64,000 nt of DNA from Aldrovandia affinis (Eukaryota > Chordata > Actinopteri > Notacanthiformes > Halosauridae). A program made the position numbers and the translations under genes. Below the pieces are notes generated by a model, which was not told the DNA's origin, ran no database searches, and saw only the letters and a list, made by a program, of their open reading frames with translations. Each line of letters opens with the position of its first letter. Within the stretch, counting starts at the first letter, position 1. The stretch is taken from assembly GCA_029706075.1 (NCBI GenBank), contig JAINUG010000026.1, positions 1,471,001 to 1,535,000 of the forward strand, read 5' to 3'. This document shows positions 1,957 to 47,160 of the stretch, piece after piece.

Positions 1957-2542
1957 GCACAAAAAATGTGTTTATACTTCACTTATTCTGTGTCATTACT
2001 ACTGACAGTGAATCTGTATATGGTAGGATAGCCCTGAGTGTCACCTTCCAGTAGAGCCCAATATGATGCCTGTATGTTGAAAAGTTCAAAAGTTATGGCC
2101 TTTGGTTACGAAAGGTCCTTTTGGAGTCTCCAAACGGCACAGTTTGGGAACGCCTGGTGGTACCCTTCAAAAAAAACTGTAATATGTTCATTTGAGGTTT
2201 TGTTCTGAAATTTGAACCTGAACTTGGTAACACTTCATGCTATGTTCCTATGGTGTTTTCCAGCTTATACCTACCAGCTATAGTCACCTGCAGGCATCCG
2301 TTTCTACAAAAAAATCCAGGCGGAATTTATATCCTTCAAATTCAGCACATTCAGACCACTATTACACAGTGCCAGAGGCACTTAGTGATTCTGATTGTTT
2401 TGCAATAAAAAAATTCAGAGTGTTATCTTTTGAATGAGACCAAAACCAGGCATATACTGCAAGTGGTTGAAGAGCAGCTTTAATTTACTTTTGGGTATGT
2501 CGTTTGGGTGTTTTTGGGTAAATTCACTTAAATGGTAACAGG
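1957..2542 (+). other. Probable 3' non-coding remainder of piggyBac 1
   Basis: No coding signal that I recognise. By position it should hold the 3' subterminal region of piggyBac 1, but I could not find its right inverted repeat with TTAA. The CR1 copy starting near 2543 probably displaced or replaced it. Confidence 0.35.
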
Positions 2543-3892
2543 TTTTTAACTTGCATCATATGCAAAATATTAGAATCTATTATTAAAGATAAACTAGAAG
2601 TATTTCTCGAAAATTACAACATCCTAAGGGATAGCCAGCATGGTTTTTGCAAGGGTAGGTCATGTCTGACAAATCTGCTGACATTTTTTGAGGAAGCAAC
2701 CAAGTGTCTGGATGAGAGAAAGGCGTATGATATTATATACTTAGATTTCCAAAAAGCATTTGATAAGGTGCCACATGACAAACTCATTATCAAAATGAGA
2801 ACAGTAGGAATTACAAGTGGCATTTTAGAGTGGGTTCGGAACTGGTTACGGGATAGAACACAAAGGGTAGTAATAGGCGGGATCTTATCCGAGGAGGGTA
2901 TAGTGGGAAGTGGAGTCCCGCAGGGATCGGTGCTGGGACCACTGCTCTTTATCATTTACATAAATGACATTGATATGGACATTGAAAGTACATTAGTTAC
3001 ATTTGCAGATGATACAAAACTGGGAGGCTTAGCAAATAGTCAGAATCTACTAAAGTAATCCAAGACGATCTGAATAGAATCCAGAAATGGGCAGAAACCT
3101 GGCAAATGAAATTTAATACAACTAAATGTAAAGTTCTACATGTGGGAATAAAAACCTAGGACAGGATTATTTGATGGGAGGTAGAAAACTAGAATGTGCA
3201 CTCGTGAGAAAAAGACCTAGGAGTACTAGTTGATCAAAGCTTGTCAGGGTCTGGTCAATGCGGTAGCAGTTAAAAAAGCCAACAGGATACTGGGATACAT
3301 AGCCAAGAGTATTGAGTACAAATCGAAGGAGATCATACGCACCCTATACAATGCCCTTGTTAGGCCACACTTGGAATATTGTGTGCAGTTCTGGGGACCG
3401 CACTACAAAAAAAGATATAGATGCGCTGGAAAAGGTCCAAAGACGGGCAACCAGACTGATTCCAGGCATAAAAGACAAGTGTTATGAGGAAAGGCTAGAG
3501 ATGCTTGGACTGTTCAAGCTTAGGAAAAGGAAACTTAGGGAGATTTGATTGAGGCTTTTAAATTTATTAAAGGAATTAACAAAGTGAATTACAGGAAATT
3601 ATTCAAGTTGAGTTCGGTTAGCAGAACGAGGGGGCATAAATGGAAACTGACAAAGGGTAAATTTCACACGGACACTAGGAAATATTTTCTCACACAGAGA
3701 GTGATCAATGCATGGAATAGCTTGCCTGGACATGTAGTGGAGGCTGAGACACTAGGGGTATTCAAGGCCAGGCTCGATCCAGTGTTAGACACTCTAGCCT
3801 TTGGGTAAACTAAGCATTGTGAGCAGATTAGTGGTAGGAATGGACGAGCAGTGTTGGGCTGAATGGCCTGTTCTCATCTTCCCCTTATGTTA
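2543..3892 (+). mobile_element. CR1-type LINE, 5'-truncated 3' part
   Basis: Non-LTR retrotransposon remnant encoding the reverse transcriptase and C-terminal region. Readable motifs in order: KILESIIKDKL at the start, YLDFQKAFDKVPH (RT motif A), [13 protein letters not shown] (motif B), FADDTKLGG (motif C), then [27 protein letters not shown], and a C-terminus with TRGHKWKL and VINAWNSLPG ending at a stop near 3806. The frame is broken near 3055, 3160-3230, 3400 and 3545, so it cannot make a protein. A 3' UTR of under 90 nt with AATGGCCTGTTCTC and CTTATGTTATG matches the second copy at 20628-21083. Truncation at the 5' end is the usual outcome of target-primed reverse transcription. The clade assignment rests on motif style and the TTCTTATG-type tail. 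Confidence 0.85.
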
Positions 3893-4155
3893 TGTGGTAG
3901 AGGCTTTTGGAGCAGTGAGACTTTCCGGGGGCAGGTTTGTTACTCTCCCAGGGTGTGAGTGTGAACTGTCGCCGGGAAGGGAGCTCCAAAGGCCTTAATT
4001 GGTTTAATTATCATTTAATTATTTAATTGGTGTCAATCAGTCAATTGATATAGAAGTCAATTGGCTGATTGGGTGTCTGGGTGAGAATGTGAGTTGTGAT
4101 TGGGTGATTGCCTCACAAGTCCCACCTGAGCCAGGCAGAAACTAAGCCTATTTAA
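3893..4155 (+). mobile_element. Solo LTR, left part, split by piggyBac 2
   Basis: Starts TGTGGTAGAGG and runs to TATTTAA, where piggyBac 2 begins. It continues after the transposon at 9081. Rejoined across a single TTAA, the junction reads CTATTTAAGAGCAGG, which looks like an LTR TATA box. No retroviral gene lies next to it, so it is a solo LTR. I found no matching flank duplication; the left flank is CR1 and the right flank is Tc1, so a later rearrangement is likely. Confidence 0.6.
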
Positions 4156-4167
4156 CCCCCTGAGGTC
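4156..4167 (+). repeat. Left terminal inverted repeat, piggyBac 2
   Basis: CCCCCTGAGGTC directly after TTAA; exact reverse complement at 9065-9076. Confidence 0.93.
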
Positions 4168-4670
4168 GGCGCCGATCCAAGCAGCAATACAAGTATATTA
4201 CTATTTCTAACTTCGCGATATTTTATCATACACACGCGGCAAAAACATTGACAGAAACCTTAGAATCGCGACTTTCCGATTTGAGCACTGGCAAATAATA
4301 TGGGATTTTTAAAATTAGATTAATTAGACCAAAAGTAAACCTTGCATTTCACTCTCTTTTTCACCTGGCAGGACCACCCCCCTTCTATTGACATGTTAAC
4401 GAGGTGTTAGTTTCGGGGAGGGGCGTGGGGAGGGGCGTCGGGCCATGTGTGAGAATGCCGGCATAAACACATAAAATGTCCCGACAATTTGAAACACGTT
4501 TTATTCAAGATGGCAAGATTTTCTGCGTTCGAGTGTTTGAGAGCAGTGATGGAAAGCGACGAGGACAACAGCTCATCATGTCCCGATTCTGAAGAGGATT
4601 CAGATGAAGAGAGACAACATTTTCAATTTAGAATTGATCCAGATGAGGACCTTACTGAAGAGTAAGTAAC

Positions 4671-4948
4671 TATATTTTATTTGCCATGTTATCAAATACT
4701 CATGTAAATGTAGCCTATGAGTTCCGCGTCTTGTGACTACATATTACGCTTTTTGCAATGTAACAAAATGCAATATGTAAAAATACTTTTCAAACGGCCT
4801 AAAATGTTTTAAAAACTCTTGTGGCATATTGTCTGTGTTTACGCTTGCGATCTGTATTGTGCCATTTATTTTATTTCGCTTGTTTTCAAATACTCGTGTA
4901 AATATATGAGTTCCGCGTCTTGTGACTACATATTACGCTTTTTGCAAC
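4671..4948 (+). repeat. Direct repeat inside first intron of piggyBac 2
   Basis: Two diverged copies of roughly 85-90 bp, about 189 bp apart, share GAGTTCCGCGTCTTGTG (near 4719 and 4908), followed by a TATTACGC-containing stretch. The second copy runs straight into the exon array, so local duplication in this intron preceded or accompanied array growth. Confidence 0.75.
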
Positions 4949-6770
4949 GTAGAGATTTGTGTATGATGTAAATATCACATTTTCCAATGCCTATTCAATG
5001 TAATGCTCTTATGTATTGTGTGTCCTTACCTTTTGCTTTTTATGTTTACAGTGAGGATGATGTGGAAGAACAAACTAATCCTGCTCCACCAAAAAAGCCA
5101 CACAGGACTCCTACACAAAGGTATGTGTCTTATGTGAATTATTGGTAGGCTGTATGATTTGTAATATGTGGCATTCCTCTGCCAGATGTGATGTTTGTAT
5201 TCTGTAGAGATTTGTGTATGATGTAAATATCACATTTCCCAATGCCTATTCACTGTAATGCTCTTATGTATTGTGTGTCCTTACAACCTTTTGCTTTTTA
5301 TGTTTACAGTGAGGATGATGTGGAAGAACAAACTAATCCTGCTCCACCAAAAAAGCCACGCAGGACTCCTACACAAAGGTATGTGTCTTATGTGAATTAT
5401 TGGTAGGCTGTATGATTTGTAATATGTGGCATTCCTCTGCCAGATGTGATGTTTGTATTCTGTAGATTTGTGTATGATGTAAATATCACATTTTCCAATG
5501 CCTATTCAATGTAATGCTCTTATGTATTGTGTGTCCTTACAACCTTTTGCTTTTTATGTTTACAGTGAGGACGATGTGGAAGAACAAACTAATCCTTCTC
5601 CACTAAAAAGCCACGCAGGACTCCTACACAAAGGTATGGGTCTTATGTGAATTATTGGTAGGCTGTATGATTTGTAATATGTGGCATTCCTCTGCCAGAT
5701 GTGATGTTTGTATTCTGTAGATTTGTGTATGATGTAAATATCACATTTTCCAATGCCTATTCAATGTAATGCTCTTATGTATTGTGTGTCCTTACAACCT
5801 TTTGCTTTTTATGTTTACAGTGAGGACGATGTGGAAGAACAAACTAATCCTTCTCCACTAAAAAGCCACGCAGGACTCCTACACAAAGGTATGTGTCTTA
5901 TGTGAATTATTGGTAGGCTGTATGATTTGTAATATGTGGCATTCCTCTGCCAGATGTGATGTTTGTATTCTGTAGATTTGTGTATGATGTAAATATCACA
6001 TTTTCCAATGCCTATTCAATGTAATGCTCTTATGTATTGTGTGTCCTTACAACCTTTTGCTTTTTATGTTTACAGTGAGGACGATGTGGAAGAACAAACT
6101 AATCCTTCTCCACTAAAAAGCCACGCAGGACCCTACACAAAGGTATGTGTCTTATGTGAATTATTGGTAGGCTGTATGATTTGTAATATGTGGCATTCCT
6201 CTGCCAGATGTGATGTTTGTATTCTGTAGATTTGTGTATGATGTAAATATCACATTTTCCAATGCCTATTCAATGTAATGCTCTTATGTATTGTGTGTCC
6301 TTACAATCTTTTGCTTTTTATGTTTACAGTGAGGACGATGTGGAAGAACAAACTAATCCTTCTCCACTAAAAGCCACGCAGGACTCCTACACAAAGGTAT
6401 GTGTCTTATGTGAATTATTGGTAGGCTGTATGATTTGTAATATGTGGCATTCCTCTGCCAGATGTGATGTTTGTATTCTGTAGATTTGTGTATGATGTAA
6501 ATATCACATTTTCCAATGCCTATTCAATGTAATGCTCTTATGTATTGTGTGTCCTTACAATCTTTTGCTTTTATGTTTACAGTGAGGACGATGTGGAAGA
6601 ACAAACTAATCCTTCTCCACTAAAAAAAGCCACGCAGGACTCCTACACAAAGGTATGTGTCTTATGTGAATTATTGGTAGGCTGTATGATTTGTAATATG
6701 TGGCATTCCTCTGCCAGATGTGATGTTTGTATTCTGTAGATTTGTGTATGATTTAAATATCACATTTCCT
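4949..6770 (+). repeat. Tandem array of seven exon-bearing ~255-bp units in piggyBac 2
   Basis: Each unit holds an intron part starting TTTGTGTATGATGT, a branch/pyrimidine region ending TTTACAG, a small exon encoding EDDVEEQTNP plus a Lys/Pro-rich tail, and a donor GTATGTGT. Exons lie at 5052-5120, 5310-5378, 5566-5633, 5821-5888, 6076-6142, 6330-6396 and 6583-6652, with lengths 69, 69, 68, 68, 67, 67 and 70 nt. Unit spacing falls from 258 to 253 bp. Exons 1-2 read CCTGCTCCACC before six A; exons 3-7 read CCTTCTCCACT before 4, 5 or 7 A. Exon 5 also lacks one T later on. Only 69-nt exons preserve the frame. Copies 3-7 are nearly identical, so they expanded later than the split from 1-2. Confidence 0.93.
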
Positions 6771-8482
6771 AACAACCATTTTTGGTTAGTTCTTACAGTG
6801 GTACCAGAGCGCCTCTACAAGTTGCCACAGAAAAGCCACGCAGGATTCGTACACCAGTATCACAAGCACCCAGGCATCCGCCATGGAAAACCGAGACCGC
6901 TCCTGATGAGGCTCCACCAGTGTCACGGTTCCAGCCTGCACGGCCACCTGGAGTGCAACTGAATTTGGCAGACAACCACACTCCTCTGGACTTGTTCAAA
7001 CTGTATGTTCCTAGAGATGCTGTCAAAACACTGTGTAGGAACACGAACAAGCAGGCTGCCATGGCACAAGCAAAGGGCTCCAAGTACACGTGGACTGATG
7101 TTGGGGTAAAGGAATTCTACAGGTACATTGGACTGCTGTTTTACATGGCCATGGTAAAGCAGCACGAAATCAGGGATTACTGGCGACAGAATACCATCTA
7201 TTCTTTAGCATTCCCGGTGACGATTATGGCCAGGGACAGATAGAGCTATTTCCTGGAATGTACACATGAGTGATCCAGACAAGGACCAAGAAAATGACCG
7301 GAAGCGGGGAACGCCACAGTACGACAAGCTGTTCAGGCTCAGACCTTTCATGGACACAGTTCAGCATGCCTGTAAAACCTTCTTTCATCCTCGCAGGAAC
7401 ATTTCAGTGGATGAAAGAATGGTAGCATGGAAGGCAAACTCCGGTATGACCCAGTACATGAAAGCAAAGCCTATAAAGTGGGGTTTCAAGTTGTTTGTAC
7501 TGTGTGACTCTAGTACTGGGTATACTGTGGACTTTTCTGTGTACCCAGGAAAACTACTTTCAGATAGGACAAGGAGGACTTACATATGACACTAATGTCA
7601 CTTGTGAATCGGGATTACTTGGGTTCTGGATATCATGTGTACATGGACAATTTCTACACAAGCCCAAAGCTCTTCAGGGACTTGCTTGGACTAAACATTG
7701 GTGCTTGTGGGACATATAGGGACAACAGGAAGGACTGTCCACGCACTGATTCAAATGCTTTGACTAAGAAGTCACCCAGAGGAAGTATCAGGTGGATTAG
7801 GGATGGTCCTCTGGTGTTTGTGAAGTGGGTGGACACTAAAGTTGTGCCTGTCTGCTCTACCATCCATGCAGCCTTCGATGGGGACACAACAAAACGGAGG
7901 GTGAAGCAAGATGGTGTCTGGATCACAAAGGACTTTCCGTGCCCTTCACCCATCATCCACTACAATAAGCACATGGGGGGTGTTGATCTGTCTGACCAAC
8001 TGATACAGTACTACACAGCGCAGCACAAAACAATGAAATGGTACCGGAAATTGTTTTTACATTTCTTGACATTGCCGCCATAAATGCATACCTCCTACAC
8101 AAAGAACTGTCATCACTGCGACAACAGGAAGCCATGACGCACAAGGCTTTCCAGGAGGAGCTCATTGCACAGCTGTGTGGTGTCTCACAGAAGATACCCA
8201 GACAACAGGCTACTTTTGATCATGTGCCTGTGCCCACTGGAAAAAAGACTATGGATGTTAGCAAACGGGCTTCTGTTGGTCGCAATAAATGCGTACTCTG
8301 CACGATGTCTGGGAAACAACAGTGCACTCCATGGGAGTGCAAGGCTTGTGATGTGCCCTTGTGCCTACAGTTGACCAGAAACTGTTTTGAGAAGTGGCAA
8401 TCAAGACTGTAAAAACAAGATGTTTTAATGTTTCACCGTGTTTTAATTTAGATTTTTTTTGTATATAGTTTGTGCTGTTTTC

Positions 8483-8488
8483 AATAAA
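8483..8488 (+). terminator. Polyadenylation signal of piggyBac 2
   Basis: AATAAA about 70 nt after the transposase stop, on the coding strand. Confidence 0.7.
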
Positions 8489-9064
8489 TCTTCCAAAATG
8501 AAAAAAGCGTATTTTTTTCTGTCTTCTGCATGACTCACTGACTTGCTTACTGTCAGTGGCTTTTGTCTTTGTCTGATGGCCTGGCCTTTGTGACAGAGAT
8601 GGCCCATCTGACAGATCTTAGAGGTGTGGACAATGAATCATGAATATTCAGGTATTTAGCATTTAGCCCTCCCACAGCCTGAAATAAATGTGACCAGTTC
8701 TGATAAAAACAGGTTTTTAGCTATTTAGATCTCAGATGTGCTAAACTATTTTCACACCTTACATAACCAAGACCTTTGTGAACAAACGACATTGGCAAAA
8801 CAATTCGTCACTATAGTTTAGTGTGTGCTTTCACAACTTTTGTGACAGCAGAAAAATTTACTATTTTTAACTTGTGTTTGTGTTTGTAGATCTATTTACA
8901 AGCTGCATATGATACTGACCAAACTATTGATGGCATACAAATGTAGCTGTGATTGTCCTTCAAATAAAAATATCAAACACTTGAGTAAGTGTGTGTTAAA
9001 TTGATGAAATTGAGATAAATATCAGACCATGCCAAAATCAAAAAACATCTAAAAGCTTAACACG

Positions 9065-9076
9065 GACCTCAGGGGG
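9065..9076 (-). repeat. Right terminal inverted repeat, piggyBac 2
   Basis: GACCTCAGGGGG directly before TTAA; exact reverse complement of 4156-4167. Confidence 0.93.
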
Positions 9077-9879
9077 TTAAGAGCAGGTGGGGCGAGTGGG
9101 GAATCAGTCAGTCTTGTCTTGATGTGTGTGTGAGTGCGCGTGCACGTGCACGTTTGATGTGGAATGTTTGATGTGAAATGTGGATGTTTAATGTTTGGAG
9201 TTTTGTGTGCGTTTGTCGAAAGTGACTGAGTAGAGTGCTTCCTGTGTGAGTGGGGAAGAGGGAGAGGGGGTGCGCTTTAGGTGTCCGCCTCTCTCCCCTG
9301 TGATTATTATGGAGGAGCGAGAGGGTGCCCTGGAAGAGGGTCCGCCTCTCGCCCTCGGTTTTAGTAAAAGAGAGCTCGCACTCGACAGTGGAGAGTAGCT
9401 GAGCAACAGCCCAAGAACTCACTGGAAAAGTGGAGGTGTCTTGGGACTGATTGCCAGAACTCTCACTGTGGGGAGTGACGAGTGTCTCTGGATGAATGAG
9501 TAAGAGAACTCGAACTGAAAAGTTTGAGTGTCTCAGTATAAATGGGTTAAATGGGTGGGAAGCACTTGAAAGGTCACTGGAGATGTGTGCCTGAGGAGGT
9601 TCCAGGGGAACTCCGGAGGAAGAGGCGCGGTGTCTCGTAAGTTTGGTTATTTTAACTTGTTATTTTCGTTTGTTGTTTTTACCCGAAAGCTTCGCGGCGA
9701 GTAGGGTGAAGACTTTGTGTCTGTGTTGGTCTTTGTTATATGTTAACCTGCTACTCCCACTGTCTCTCCCATGTCTGGGGGGAGAGACAGAAAAACGAAT
9801 AAATAAAATCCGGTCCGTAGACCGACAAACTCCACTCCCTGTCTCCTGGCTGTTCTGTTCCCATTCAGGGTTTGTCACA
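9077..9879 (+). mobile_element. Solo LTR, right part, after piggyBac 2
   Basis: Continues the LTR started at 3893. It begins at the second TTAA of the piggyBac insertion and ends GTTTGTCACA, the near inverse of the TGTGGTA start. Overlapping AATAAA signals at 9798-9807 lie about 75 nt before the end, as expected for the R/U5 part of an LTR. Rejoined length without piggyBac is about 1062 bp. The right flank (from 9880) is Tc1 coding sequence. Confidence 0.6.
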
Positions 9880-27316: not shown

Positions 27317-27419
27317 TAAGAATCAACTGGCCCCAGCCATAACCTGGTCCCAGTGTGCTCCACAGCGCCACTCTAGGTCCTAGTGTGATATCCTGCCCCA
27401 GCACAGGCTCCAGTACCTC

Positions 27420-29895
27420 CTCTGACTGTTAAATGCAGGCCCATTTATCTCCCCAGAGAGTTTACTGTGGTCATGATCATGGCTGTTTACATCCCACCCG
27501 ATGCTAATGCTAACTCGGCTATCGGACATTTACATGGCAGCATTAGCAGCCAGCAGAGCACATACCCTGACGCTGTGCACATTATAGCAGGGGACTTCAA
27601 TCACGCAAATTTGAAGGCAGCGCTCCCCAAATTCCACCAGCATGTTAAGTGTGCTACCAGAGGAGCTAACACACTGGACAAGGTCTACTCCAACATCAAG
27701 CTAGGCTACAGGGCAAGACCACTACCACACCTGGGTCAGTCTGACCACTTGTCCCTGCTGTTAATCCCTGCGTATGCCCCCCTCAGGAAAACTGCTCCTA
27801 CCATCACAAAAACTGTCCAAACCTGGCCTGTTGGTGCCATCCAGCAGCTGCGGGACTGCTTCGACCAAACTGACTGGGATGTTTTTGAACACCAGGACCT
27901 GGAGGTGTTCGTGTTCTGTGTACTGTGCTACATTATGTTCTGCATAGGTATGGTCACAGTGGACAAACGCATCCGGGTCTATCCCAACCTGGAGCCCTGG
28001 ATGAACCGGGAGGTCCAGCAGCTGGTGAAGGAGAGGAACAGCGCCTTCAGGGCTGGCGACAGGGCCCACTACAGCACGGCCAGAGCTAACCTGAAGAGGG
28101 GCATCAGAGAGGCCAAGGCAGACTACAGGAGGAAGATTGAGGACCACCTGGACAGCAATAACAGCAGGCAGGTGTGGCAGGGAGTCCAGCACATCACCAA
28201 CTACAAGACCAACCTCGGAGCTGCCGAAGGTGACGCCTCGCTGGCAGAGGAGCTGAACCTCTTCTTTGCCCGCTTCGAGGTAGAGCCACCAGAAGCCACC
28301 CCACACCCCACGGTCCACAGCAGCACAACCCTCACAGTGGAGGAGCATGAGGTGAGGTGCACGCTGTGGGCCGTTAACCCGAGGAAGGCTGCTGGACCCG
28401 ACGGCATCCCCGGGCGCGTGCTGAAGGACTGCGCGTACCAGCTGGCTGGAGTCTTCGCAAGGATTTTCAACCAGTCCCTAGCCCAGTCCACTGTCCCACC
28501 CTGTCTGAAATCCTCCACCATAGTCCCCCTGCCCAAGAAACCCCACGTTTCTAGCCTCAACGACTACCGGCCAGTTGCACTTACACCAGTGGTGATGAAA
28601 TGCTTTGAAAAACTGGTCCGTGGTCACATCACATCACTCCTTCCCCGAAGCTTTGATCCCCACCAGTTTGCTTATAGGAGGAACAGATCTACAGAGGACG
28701 CCGTAGCTACAGCCCTCCATGCTGCACTGTCCCATCTGGAGCAGCAGGGGAGCTATGTACGGATGCTCTTCGTAGACTACAGCTCTGCATTCAACACCAT
28801 CCTCCCCCACAAACTGCTGGACAAACTGAGGGACCTGGGACTTCCACACTCCACCTGTATGTGGATCAACAGCTTCCTGACTGATCGCAGCCAGAGGGTC
28901 AGAGTGGGCCATCACACATCCACGGCCCTCAGTGTCAGTACTGGCTCCCCACAGGGCTGTGTGCTGAGCCCTCTGCTGTACACCCTCTACACGCATGACT
29001 GCACCCCCGCCCACCACAGCAACACCATCATCAAGTTTGCGGATGACACCACGGTGGTGGGTCTCATCTCTGGGGGGGACGAGTCAGCATACAGAGATGA
29101 AGTGGAGCAGCTGACAGCGTGGTGCAGAGAGAACAACCTGCTCCTCAACACCTCAAAGACCAAGGAGCTTGTAATAGACTACAGGAAGAAGAAAACAGAC
29201 ATTCCACCACTAACCATCAGCGGGGTCTGTGTGGAGAGGGTGGCCGACTTCCGCTTCCTGGGAGTCCACATGGAGGAGGGCCTGACCTGGGGCGTGAACA
29301 CCGCTGAGCTGCTGAAAAAGGCCCAGCAGAGACTGTACTTCCTGAGGGTGCTCAGGAGGAACAACATCACACAGAGACTGTTGGTGTCCTTCTACCGGTG
29401 CTCTATTGAGAGCATACTGACATACTGCATATGTGTGTGGTACACCAGCTGCACAGCGGCTCAGAGGAAAGCGCTCCAGAGGGTCATCAACACGGCCCAG
29501 AAGATTGTCGGATCCCCTCTCCTCACACTGGAAGACCTACATAGTTCCCGCTCTCTCACAAGAGCTCTGAACATCACAAAGGACACTTCCCACCCTGGAC
29601 ACTCCCTGTTTGAACTGTTGCCGTCAGGCAGACGGTACAGATCCATCAAAGCACGAACAAACAGACTCAAAAACAGTTTCTACCCATCAGCAATAACTAC
29701 ACTTAATGCAGCTACAAAATATGTGCAATGACAGAGAATGTTTGAATGTGTGGTTGTGTGTGTTTTACTTAGTATTTATCTTAGATATATTATTCTGTAT
29801 TCCTGATATTTTTATTCTTAGATGTTTTTATATACTGTTTGGAATATTGCACTGACTGGTTGGCATTTCAATTTCGTTGTACGTGTTACAATGAC
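27420..29895 (+). mobile_element. Rex1/Babar LINE, 5'-truncated
   Basis: Coding can be followed back to LTVKCRPIYLPREF near 27430, just upstream of the long frame, where similarity ends, so the copy lost its N-terminal endonuclease part. The body and C-terminus are intact (see 27467-29731). The 3' UTR ends near TTTCGTTGTACGTGTTACAATGACAAT (29870-29897), the usual end of Rex1 copies. Confidence 0.88.
27467..29731 (+). CDS. Rex1 LINE endonuclease/reverse transcriptase, 754 codons open
   Basis: The longest open frame in the window. Residues 1-110 hold the C-terminal part of an apurinic-type endonuclease: VYIPPDANA, IIAGDFNH and GQSDHLSLL. Reverse transcriptase follows: NDYRPVALTPV, FVDYSSAFNTILPH (motif A with catalytic Asp), TGSPQGCVLSPLLY (motif B), KFADDTTVVG (motif C), then LLLNTSKTKELV and a C-terminus with LPSGRRYRSIKART, stop at 29729. 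The fish Rex1 RT signature around SSAFNT and QQRLYFLR is present. It would copy its own RNA at a nicked target. The first Met is only the first ATG after truncation, not a true start. No stops in 2.2 kb and higher GC than the surroundings indicate a young insertion. Without the endonuclease N-terminus it cannot move alone. Confidence 0.9.
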   Translation: MVMIMAVYIPPDANANSAIGHLHGSISSQQSTYPDAVHIIAGDFNHANLKAALPKFHQHVKCATRGANTLDKVYSNIKLGYRARPLPHLGQSDHLSLLLIPAYAPLRKTAPTITKTVQTWPVGAIQQLRDCFDQTDWDVFEHQDLEVFVFCVLCYIMFCIGMVTVDKRIRVYPNLEPWMNREVQQLVKERNSAFRAGDRAHYSTARANLKRGIREAKADYRRKIEDHLDSNNSRQVWQGVQHITNYKTNLGAAEGDASLAEELNLFFARFEVEPPEATPHPTVHSSTTLTVEEHEVRCTLWAVNPRKAAGPDGIPGRVLKDCAYQLAGVFARIFNQSLAQSTVPPCLKSSTIVPLPKKPHVSSLNDYRPVALTPVVMKCFEKLVRGHITSLLPRSFDPHQFAYRRNRSTEDAVATALHAALSHLEQQGSYVRMLFVDYSSAFNTILPHKLLDKLRDLGLPHSTCMWINSFLTDRSQRVRVGHHTSTALSVSTGSPQGCVLSPLLYTLYTHDCTPAHHSNTIIKFADDTTVVGLISGGDESAYRDEVEQLTAWCRENNLLLNTSKTKELVIDYRKKKTDIPPLTISGVCVERVADFRFLGVHMEEGLTWGVNTAELLKKAQQRLYFLRVLRRNNITQRLLVSFYRCSIESILTYCICVWYTSCTAAQRKALQRVINTAQKIVGSPLLTLEDLHSSRSLTRALNITKDTSHPGHSLFELLPSGRRYRSIKARTNRLKNSFYPSAITTLNAATKYVQ

Positions 29896-43060: not shown

Positions 43061-45065
43061 TGTTTAGCTACCCTAAGTATGCTACTGACAACAGCTGTGG
43101 CAAGTAACAGGCTAGCTAGCTTAAGTCACATTTACTGTGCATAGTTCTTCCACATACTGCTTTCGGATAACTTTTCCCCAGCTCCTCTTGGCTCTTGAAA
43201 TATGGTTCCCCTACATTCCTCACAATCTTTCATTATTTGTCTTTCCAGGTGTTAACATTTTTTAAATATCTTTTTTTGCCTACATACAAACACATTTATA
43301 CTTCCGCAGACAAGTACAGCATCTGCCCCTCCATTCTCAGAAATGTACATATGTTTTATCCACACAAGCCAAATTTAAAATACTGGGGTACCGTCACAAT
43401 TTAGAGAGGGTATCAAATAATGACATGTCATGTTTATCTCGATTTTCACAAAATATGCACATATGCAATTTTTCGTTGCATCGGCTCAATTATATAATTA
43501 TTATTATACGTTAGAAGATTTTCACAATGGCATGCATTAAGCACTGACATCAGCATACATAAAATAACAAGAAAACAGAAATAAAGTAGTGATAATAAGT
43601 AGTAAAACATAACCCCCCCACACACACACACACAACAAGACCTGTTTATGTCTAAATGAAATGCATTAGCCAAACTGACTAAAACATAAGATGTAACACT
43701 AACTAGTTCACTATGAGCCACTTTTATTTTTACATCTAGCCAGCTGAAAAACTAAATACTTCTGTGGAAGCCTCATTGGCTGGACGCAGTCCACAACATC
43801 AGGTTACACTCTTTCTGGTGCTTACATGTTACCTGTTACAATAAAGTTGTTTTATTAAGACGTAAACTCATTTACTCAGTGTAAACCCATCTGCTCACTT
43901 TTACATTTGATTAAGGAGGAAGCAAATGTGTTTTCAGTCAGGAAAAAACTATATTAATGAAGCTAAATACAATGGTTGGTTTGATGTTCGAGGAAATAAG
44001 CAATGTGACTTTGGATGGTAGTGGTACAAAAATAAATAACTTAAGTAAACCACTCACTAGTGGCGGTTTGGGATAATACCTATGTATGGCATGTCATACA
44101 CCCAAACAGTAGCCCAGCAATCGCTACAGAGATTGCCCAGAGATTGCTACACTATTCTATCATGCTAGCTATCAAGCATTAGCGGTTTTAGTTAGATGGC
44201 TGGCTAGCTAGCTAGATTGTCCACAACATTGCTCACCTAGGAAAATTGTATCATGACAAATCAGTCTACAAGTTAATTCTGACATAGCTACATGTTACAG
44301 AAAAAATCTGTGAAAAATTCATTGATTCATCACTCACTTTGTCTTGAAAATATGCCCAAATATCCATCTTAATTTTTTTGACATTTTGAACTGCTGCGTG
44401 TACTGATAATACTTTATACTGCCAGCCATGTGAAAGAAAGCCTGTTCTAGCTTCCAAATCATGTAGACGCCTCGGCCACATCAACAAATCTCTGCATTAG
44501 TTCTACCGAGAGTAAAACATGCCTACAGTTCCAAAAGTGGCCACAGATTCCACATGGTCCTTCTAGAGACATGTTTTTAGTCATATGTATAGTTGAAGTA
44601 GTCTACTTAAATTATCGTGAATGTGGTAGGGACAAAAATACATTCTCCAAAAAGCGATAGGAAGATTTGTGAGTTGTGAGATGTAAATTCAGCGGCAGGA
44701 AATCCTGGCTGACGCATATGCACACGACCCCTGGTTGGATGAAGCCAACTGTCCCCTACCACTATGGACTCCTCATAGTCAGCTAATGATGCAACCCAGG
44801 CGCAAACCTTGTCTAAACTATAGGGCCTAGTCCACGTTTGCTGCAAATGCCTTTACCAACTGAGCCATTTCAGAACTCTGTGAAAGATTTTTTGGGGATA
44901 TCCTGAAGTGCTGACGACATATGTGATATTTACACAGTAGGTTTTCCGATTTCTGATAGAATTAAGCTGTACCAAAGCAAAGACACAAATACACTATATT
45001 ACAAAATTGTCTTGGCAGTATGAGAATGAATCAACAACAGAAAACTGGAAACTGTTGGGATCTAA
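43061..45065. other. Unassigned sequence with GCTAGC clusters
   Basis: A short (CA)n run at 43617-43635 and GGCTGGCTAGCTAGCTAG near 44200. No recognisable gene. Confidence 0.3.
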
Positions 45066-47160
45066 ATATAATTGCATAGTGGAATCTCTTCTAAAGAAAC
45101 CAAATCTTGATCCTGTTAATCTGAAGAACTATAGGCCCATTTCAAATCTGCCCTTTTTGTCAAAAATTTTAGAGAAATCTGTAGCTCAACAATTAACTGC
45201 TTTCCTAAAAACGAATAATCTATATGAAACATTACAATCAGGTTTTAGACCAAACCATAGCACTGAGACAGCACTTATTAAAGTTGTAAATGACTTACTG
45301 TTAGCATTGGACACTGGTTGTGTTTCTATTCTAGTGCTCCTTGACATAAGTGCTGCTTTTGACACTATTGACCACCAGATTCTCCTTCATAGGCTAGAAA
45401 ACCTGGTTGGTTTGCGTGGACGGGCACTCTCATGGTTTAAATCATACTTATTAGACCGGTTTCAATTTGTGCAATTAGATCAAGAGTTCTCTGACTACTC
45501 TCAGGTTAAATATGGTATTCCACAAGGCTCAGTGCTGGGACCATTACTGTTCTCATTATACTTGCTACCACTCGGTAATGTTATTCGTAAACATGGTGTA
45601 AATTTCCATTGCTATGCCGATGATACACAGCTGTACATATCAATGAAACCAGGTGAAACACTTAAACTCACTCAATTAGAGGCTTGTATCTCTGATATAA
45701 AGAACTGGATGACAGTACATTTCCTGCTTTTAAATTCAGATAAAACAGAGATGATGGTTTTGGGCCCCAAAAATTAAGGAACAAGTTGGATCTGCAGTTA
45801 AATGCAGGTGATTGCATAGTTACATCAAGTATTATGGTTAAGAACCTTGGTTTTATTATTGATCAGGACCTTACATTTGACACTCATATTAAAAACACTT
45901 CCAGAGTAGCTTTCTTTTCACCTAAGAAACATAGCTAAAATTCGGCACTTTCTGTCATTAGAGGATGCTAAAACCTTGATGCATGCTTTTGTTGCATCGA
46001 GGCTAGACTATTGTAATGCCTTATTATCCGGCTCCTCTAGTAGCTCTCTAAAGAGTCTTCAACTAGTACAGAATACAGCGGCACGTATTTTGACTAGATC
46101 CAAAAGTATGAGCACATTACTCCAGTGTTAGCATCACTACATTGGCTTCCTATTAAATATCGGGCTGATTATAAAGTACTGTTGCTAACTTTTAAAGCAG
46201 TAAACGGACTTGCACCTTTATATCTGACCGAAATGATTGCCCCTATAAGCCGACACGACTGCTTCGTTCACAAGAAGCCGGCCATCTATTACTCCCTAGA
46301 ATTTTGAAGAGCACAGCTGGTGGTAGAGCCTTCTCTTTTAGAGCTCCTCTGTTGTGGAACGGTTTACCAAGGCATGTTAGGGATTCGGACACAGTTTCAA
46401 TTTTTAAGTGTAGATTAAAAACATATCTTTCAGCCTAGCTTACTGCCAAACATAGTCTAGGTGGAGAGATGGAGAAGGCCGTGCCTTAGTGTCTTATGGA
46501 GTGAGAAACTTTCCATACTGTCACCTCCTCAATGTGTTACCACCACTGTTATGCTGGTTATCCTTGATCAGGTGTGGATTGTTTGGAACTCTCACATGGC
46601 TGCGTGTTTTCTCTGTCCCTCTCCTAATAGGTATGCTGCCATAGCTTACACCTGTTGGGGCTAACTGTATATTTCCTATGCTTGTGCTCCCCTGCTCTTA
46701 CATAATGCTACTGGCTATAGCACTGCTTTTTTTTCTGACTGCATGTTCTCTTCTCTGCCTCGGCCTCTGACTCGGGGGCACCTGCCCCGAGCCCTAGATC
46801 CTGCGAGAAGTGTGAGCTGCCCCCATCAACCCTCACCCCCACGCCAACCCCAGTTCCTGGATCTGGACCCTCTCCGCGTGGTTTAGCCCCCCGCTGACTA
46901 CCTAACTCAGACTAACCTTGGACTGACCATGACATGGTCTTTTTGGACATACCCTGTGCCGGCCAGAAGAGGATGGCTCCCCCTTTTAGTCTGGTTCCTC
47001 CCAAGGTTTCTCCCTACCTAGGAGTTTTTCCTTGCCACTGTTGCCGTAGGCTTGCTTTTGGGGGTCTAGGCCTGGGTTCCCCCTCTGTTAAGCGTTTTGT
47101 GACAATTCTGTTGTGAAAAGCGCTATACAAATAAACTTGATTTGATTTGATTTGATATAT
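45066..47160 (+). mobile_element. L2 LINE, 3' two thirds, near-complete RT
   Basis: Reverse transcriptase reads well from [20 protein letters not shown] through [16 protein letters not shown] (motif A), [19 protein letters not shown] (motif B) and CYADDTQLY (motif C) to [13 protein letters not shown] at 45775. Coding then continues in shifted frames: NLGFIIDQDLTFDTHIKN, HAFVASRLDYCNALLSG, LASLHWLPIKYRADYK, APLLWNGLPRHVRDSD and CRLKTYLSA, stop at 46436. Frameshifts lie near 45768, 45915, 46112 and 46275. The 3' UTR carries CTGGTTCCTCCCAAGG and GTTTTTCCTTGCCACTG, ending AAAAGCGCTATACAAATA and tandem TTGAT units. The 5' end is truncated, removing the endonuclease. A host function is unlikely. 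Confidence 0.92.

Follow-up and report, generated by a model that had tools for sequence, protein, structure and literature searches.

We found that a complete 4.9-kb piggyBac element in the genome of the halosaur Aldrovandia affinis, a deep-sea fish, encloses a tandem array in which a whole exon is repeated together with both of its splice sites. The repeated segment, which comprises exon 2 of a three-exon transposase gene with the end of intron 1 before it and part of intron 2 after it, occurs head to tail in one to seven copies in different elements, the highest numbers being reached in two lineages. We consider it likely that the array is an exon-bearing variable-number tandem repeat of a young piggyBac family, which is carried along with the element, whose instability is tolerated, and whose exons are predicted to be included by splicing. 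All positions given below are those of the window, i.e. the whole stretch of 64,000 nucleotides analysed here.

The array of the window occupies positions 4953 to 6767 of the forward strand. Tandem Repeats Finder reports a period of 255, 7.1 copies, 98% matches and a score of 3443, the runner-up array of the window scoring just 148; the unit spacings are 255, 256, 255, 255, 254, 254 and 256. All seven units have the acceptor TTTACAG and the donor GTATG, the latter extended to GTATGGG in unit 3 and to GTATGTG in the other units. The unit exons lie on the forward strand at 5052..5120 and 5310..5378 (69 nt each, in frame), 5566..5633 and 5821..5888 (68 nt each), 6076..6142 and 6330..6396 (67 nt each) and 6583..6652 (70 nt), hence only units 1 and 2 have a length that is a multiple of three. 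The original prediction of seven complete cassettes, each with an acceptor, a 67–70-nt exon and a donor at a period of 255, is confirmed by these data. The exon had been described there by its acidic segment EDDVEEQTNP. The acidic part stands, but the whole exon encodes an acidic half and then a basic one (EDDVEEQTNP / APPKKPRRTPTQ); the net charge per unit is -1 in the subfamily of the window and 0 in its sister subfamily.

The surrounding element extends between TTAA sites from 4152 to 9080 on the forward strand, and its 16-nt terminal inverted repeats (left, 4152..4167, forward strand; right, 9065..9080, reverse strand) are 100% complementary with the TTAA included. With up to three errors tolerated, both ends with TTAA were located in 18 of 26 copies of the element, one end in 7 and neither in 1. 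Exon 1 (4510..4661, forward strand) has 152 nt, i.e. 50 codons and 2 nt, and ends in phase 2 at the donor GTAAGTA. It is near-identical in the nine relatives where exon 1 or its start was found (of nine copies asked besides copy L034, two gave none) and is also present in the annotated protein P0040. Intron 1 (4662..5051, forward strand) is 390 nt long here and has other lengths in relatives. The last exon (6799..8412, forward strand) encodes the remaining linker, the DDE_Tnp_1_7 catalytic domain and the C-terminus, and is broken here by small indels. Exon 1 ends in phase 2 and the last exon resumes there at 6799, in agreement with the predicted phase-2 symmetry of exon 2.

The assignment to piggyBac transposases is likewise borne out. 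PF13843 (DDE_Tnp_1_7) matches three of the four last-exon pieces of the window copy and is present in the proteins P0001, P0002, P0004 and P0040. From residue 64 or 58 onward, the last exon of copy L034 aligns to transposases of known structure, those of piggyBat and piggyBac, and the aspartates of its VDERM, YMDNF and GVDLSD motifs, which are presumably the catalytic ones, align with aspartates of piggyBat. Since the structural match begins at residue 64 or 58 of the last-exon product, the product of exon 2 precedes this match and belongs to the N-terminal tail. The zf-Tnp_2 domain was detected in the eel protein P0004 and not in P0001, P0002 or P0040; L034 terminates in a cysteine-rich stretch. 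In P0001 and P0040 the last exon begins with three extra residues (SYS) before GTRAP, an extension that would correspond to an in-frame alternative acceptor 9 nt upstream, at about 6786–6799 of the window.

The number of units varies widely between copies of the element. A genome search with the array as query, in which 40 of 519 candidates were scored, led to 26 measured copies of 30; the other four (L026, L027, L028 and L030), which lie on the other strand and were left unturned, gave no units and no flank. In subfamily A, to which the window copy belongs, twelve copies were found with 7, 6, 6, 5, 4, 4, 4, 4, 3, 3, 2 and 2 unit exons, the counts of L037 (without its 3' part) and L043 (in which a deletion cuts the array) being minima. 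A genome pattern search for the most frequent exon start of the A type revealed no other A arrays than these twelve, although an array made of b-type units only would escape it. Outside the array, 54 pairs among eleven subfamily-A copies (L037 has too little flank and was left out) differ by 0.07–0.86%, and 30 of the 54 by at most 0.44%. Pairs with 6 and 3 units, 7 and 6 units, and 7 and 2 units differ by 0.07% over 2818 columns, 0.22% over 2230 columns and 0.28% over 2839 columns, respectively. Variation of unit number among near-identical copies, the check that the original prediction had proposed, was thus observed over a range of two to seven units. Since its units stand head to tail and vary in number among copies that are otherwise alike, here within one genome, the array is a variable-number tandem repeat.

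In the sister lineage B, ten copies were measured. Six of them have 2 units, three (L034, L035 and L036, the fifth unit of the last being cut) have 5, and L038 has 6 recognisable units. Outside the array, the difference between L034 and L035 is 0.04% over 2817 columns, and the two sit at unrelated TTAA sites. When flanks of up to 600 bp were compared for the copies with an end found, the only match was one of 205 bp at 92% linking L033 and L044, which we interpret as a dispersed repeat. Near-identical copies at different sites would reflect past transposition of the family.

The original prediction had left room for a private duplication, with one exon in all other family members; eleven further copies of the subfamily have two to six units. 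According to this explanation, the window copy is a decayed element with a chance array of no wider meaning, which would suit its out-of-frame catalytic region and the five of seven unit exons that are not multiples of three. However, L034 with its five units has an open catalytic exon, and the explanation is ruled out by the eleven other copies together with the arrays of up to six units in the sister lineage; the probability that we leave to it is negligible.

The genome contains 206 unit acceptors within one mismatch. Besides the full-length copies, L024 and L029 are short non-autonomous derivatives, in which a complete unit plus the beginning of another is fused to late coding sequence, and L023 and L025 give the same partial match. 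The length of these derivatives is 1.5–2.1 kb in the three for which both ends were found.

The arrays differ in composition as well as in length. In subfamily A the unit types follow each other in the consistent order a-b-c. Type c occurs as many as five times, some copies lack a or b, and L041 has three b units and no c. In arrays of lineage B it is the upstream side that sets the first unit apart, and the units after it are copies. Such an order resembles that of a minisatellite with a stable 5' end. A second tandem repeat, non-coding and with a unit of about 190–212 bp (around 205 bp), is located in intron 1 upstream of the array, at 4662–4952 of the window, where about two degenerate copies were recognised by eye from self-similar pieces. 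Intron 1 was measured in 18 copies; it is 2161 nt long in L036 and 202–209, 390–413, 604–643 or 795 nt long in the other 17. These steps would correspond to one to about four copies of the repeat (L022, L031–L050). As the non-coding repeat of intron 1 varies too, the exon is not needed for instability. Regional instability can explain the variation in the absence of selection, and therefore variation alone is not evidence of function.

An origin of the differences in long-read assembly errors, either in unit number or in the frameshifts, has to be weighed against the structure of the arrays. The 2.3-kb 3' part of seven subfamily-A copies contains 42 small indels versus 37 substitutions, and in the same part L035 differs from its twin L034 by six indels and zero substitutions. 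An excess of indels over substitutions is typical of uncorrected long reads, and runs such as six A are places where long-read assemblies err. The indel excess suggests that many of the small frameshifts in subfamily A come from assembly error; the broken catalytic exon of the window copy is perhaps partly of this kind. However, the excess concerns frameshifts of one or two bases and not 500–1800 bp of array at separate sites. Moreover, the variant units occur in a consistent order, the twins L034 and L035 have equal counts, and the older B copies L038 and L047 show an ordinary ratio of 54 substitutions to 10 indels. Assembly error was therefore rejected as the cause of the array, for which we consider it very improbable, and retained as the likely cause of many frameshifts.

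The original prediction that any number of units could be used in frame is not supported for the window copy as assembled. Its frame is open into the last exon for 4 of the 128 subsets of the seven unit exons (none, 1, 2, and 1 with 2), and its catalytic region is split across four successive open frames. Among all 26 copies, 62 of 85 measured unit exons are a multiple of three; of 91 unit matches, five without a clear exon end and one 50-nt exon of L038 were omitted from this count. In 21 of the 23 frame-losing exons the length of the six-A run is changed. In L034 exon 1 is intact, the last exon is open, and two of the five unit exons are in frame.

The lost frames could also be taken as a sign that the repeat is purely intronic, with unit exons that are skipped or mis-spliced as passengers of a minisatellite. 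This explanation, which we consider unlikely, would fit the varying non-coding repeat of intron 1 as well as the degree of conservation, the whole exon being no more conserved than its introns. It would also fit the outcome of genome pattern searches for a spliced retrocopy, which was not found by the unit-unit, unit-last exon or exon 1-last exon joins. The unit-unit join CARAG/TGAGGAYGATGTGGAA, with up to two mismatches, matched 48 times in the genome; the twelve known arrays account for 43 of these matches, as ordinary acceptors, and the other 5 lie elsewhere. Joins of exon 1 or of a unit to the last exon gave 0 matches with up to two mismatches. On the other side, the concentration of frame losses in the six-A run argues against exons that have decayed as passengers. 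TTTACAG is retained in 85 of 86 measured units and GTATGT in 82 of 86, an observation of little power in copies so young. A query with an N-terminal stretch of 125 residues retrieved three annotated A. affinis proteins among 2956 candidates (gene models only), and three gene models, P0001, P0002 and P0040, include the exon in frame.

We favour a tolerated, exon-bearing tandem repeat, and propose the following course of events. The whole stretch of intron 1 and exon 2 would be unstable, and the number of units would shift by slippage or unequal exchange during replication or repair. The gap left by excision of the element could perhaps assist the change, although excision of piggyBac is usually resealed without DNA synthesis, which counts against such a step. 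The element would bear the instability since whole numbers of intact units keep the frame and the encoded piece lies outside the catalytic fold, in the N-terminal tail; tolerance is thus most likely due to the symmetry of the exon and its place in a disordered linker. Transcripts would include varying unit exons and give rise to transposases with zero to several acidic-proline-basic modules of 23–24 residues.

To infer the ancestral state, the last intron together with the beginning of the last exon served as query; 40 of 110 candidates were scored, and 32 copies, matching from the first query base to at least base 343, were informative. Units were counted by repeated donor-side matches beside each last-exon match, the count of L038 being taken from the array measurement. 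One unit is present in 14 copies, two in 6 and three or more in 11, with units beyond an insertion escaping the count; one copy, on C2, has two acceptors 1.46 kb apart and was left unclassed. The one-unit copies are 88–97% identical to the window and the subfamily-A copies 99–100%. Reading of L051 to L054 showed a single exon 2 in each, although L053 lacks the exon 1 side and may have had more units, and the eel relative P0004 has one comparable segment as judged by eye. A single exon 2 is therefore probably ancestral, to judge from the older one-unit relatives and the eel protein.

The exon itself has a counterpart in the same gene. In L051, which shares its contig with the annotated protein P0002, a 40-nt match at 92.5% links the 3' half of exon 2 to the beginning of the last exon. 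The window exon 2 matches its last-exon start at 24 of 27 nt, which none of 1000 shuffles equalled. The intron end of the unit and that of the last exon align weakly (28 of 1000 shuffles are as good), and the alignment of the donor side of the unit with the last exon is not beyond chance (951 of 1000 shuffles are as good). These matches define a segment common to exon 2 and the last-exon start, which probably stems from an older duplication.

Between the subfamilies the whole exon differs by about 9.5%, versus 3.6–4.8% for the flanking intron columns compared; the intron columns were restricted, as a figure of 8.1% is inflated by the first units of lineage B, whose upstream intron is non-homologous. 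An exon more divergent than its introns is not predicted by plain neutrality. The variability is located in the acidic half, where 7 of 34 columns vary among three subfamily consensuses versus 4 of 143 intron columns (p 0.001), and 11 of 34 versus 5 of 143 with a fourth consensus added (p 6e-6). In the basic half, 1 column of 35 is variable; the division into halves was made after seeing the data. The acidic half may reflect diversifying selection, or a mosaic history.

The divergence of the acidic half is one of several observations that would suit a tunable transposase, with unit number (and splicing) under selection as the modules regulate the enzyme, for instance by adding CK2-type sites to an autoinhibitory tail, short forms being active and long forms damped. 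A study of piggyBat describes the N-termini of the superfamily as non-conserved and predicted to be disordered, and reports that the N-terminal tail of piggyBac and piggyBat carries CKII motifs whose removal stimulates transposition (PMC11707139). In the array, the join between units creates TQSEDD, and each further unit adds two S/T-x-x-D/E motifs. However, two such motifs per unit are ordinary for the composition, being reached by 21% of shuffles, and the count is not significant; the two halves of the exon, as stated, were defined with the data in view, and the non-coding neighbour in intron 1 varies as well. Selection on single copies would also be weakened by the action of the transposase in trans. 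We regard a tunable transposase as possible but doubtful.

Repeats at the same place in other fish bear on this question from the protein side. An N-terminal repeat, defined by at least 9 of 12 matching residues (zero found in five shuffles per protein), is present in 13 of 120 relatives among the matches listed; since 107 of 120 lack one, arrays are not general. Two of the 13 proteins are from A. affinis itself and some others are low-complexity, which weakens their weight for a tunable linker. In the smelt protein P0084 (Hypomesus transpacificus), the same place is occupied by four modules, each about 32 residues long and passing from acidic to basic. Its N-terminus as query retrieved four more proteins, each of which matches only 40% of the 230 residues at the N-terminus of P0084. 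Counts by eye for P0084, P0086 and P0091 gave four modules of about 32 residues for smelt, some five short modules for sardine and two of 16 residues for silverside. Repetition of the linker thus recurs, at the protein level, in a minority of fish piggyBacs. Going further, one might envisage a self-multiplying regulatory exon. Jumps and repair would re-draw the number of modules, joins would add CK2-type sites, and splicing would give a ladder of lengths, by which the family would explore its own activity, the same having arisen independently in the smelt, sardine and silverside relatives. To this proposal we assign little probability.

The window probably contains other mobile elements. A second, different piggyBac-like gene lies in pieces upstream, at 1–1800 (by eye). 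Open frames with the reverse transcriptase domain PF00078 are found at 2522–3058, 27389–29731 and 44941–45777 and probably belong to LINE elements; the reverse transcriptase frame of 780 residues also matches PF09004.

The transposon is of a known kind; what is new is that an entire exon cassette forms a variable-number repeat and is carried through transposition. The element belongs to the piggyBac superfamily and is related to fish PGBD4-like proteins; with piggyBac (PDB 6x67) and piggyBat (9c0f) it shares the TTAA target, terminal inverted repeats, DDE_Tnp_1_7 and an N-terminal tail. In contrast to these, it has a three-exon gene whose middle exon is present in tandem copies, the number of which differs between copies of the element. 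The DNA transposons Tetris and Galileo likewise contain tandem repeats inside the element. There the repeated sequence is non-coding and terminal or sub-terminal in position, whereas the unit described here is a whole exon with both splice sites inside a transposase gene. In Dscam-like arrays of host genes, exons stand head to tail with their own splice sites, which is the same layout; here, by contrast, the gene is mobile and the one to seven exons are nearly identical and vary in number within one genome. A mutually exclusive choice of exons is not indicated for this array. The PGBD4-like isoform X3 of Hypomesus transpacificus (P0084) likewise has acidic-then-basic modules between the N-terminus and the catalytic domain, but their sequence is another one and they are known here from the predicted protein. 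Literature searches, judged by titles and the starts of abstracts, brought up no account of a repeat that carries an exon within a transposase gene.

The family thus presents elements in which the copy number of an exon differs while hardly any bases have changed, and one of its lineages keeps a trace of the possible origin of this exon, the 3' half of which matches the start of the last exon. Its copies, otherwise nearly identical, form a natural length series of a transposase linker within one genome, which would allow a direct test of how transposition depends on the length and the phosphorylation sites of the N-terminus.
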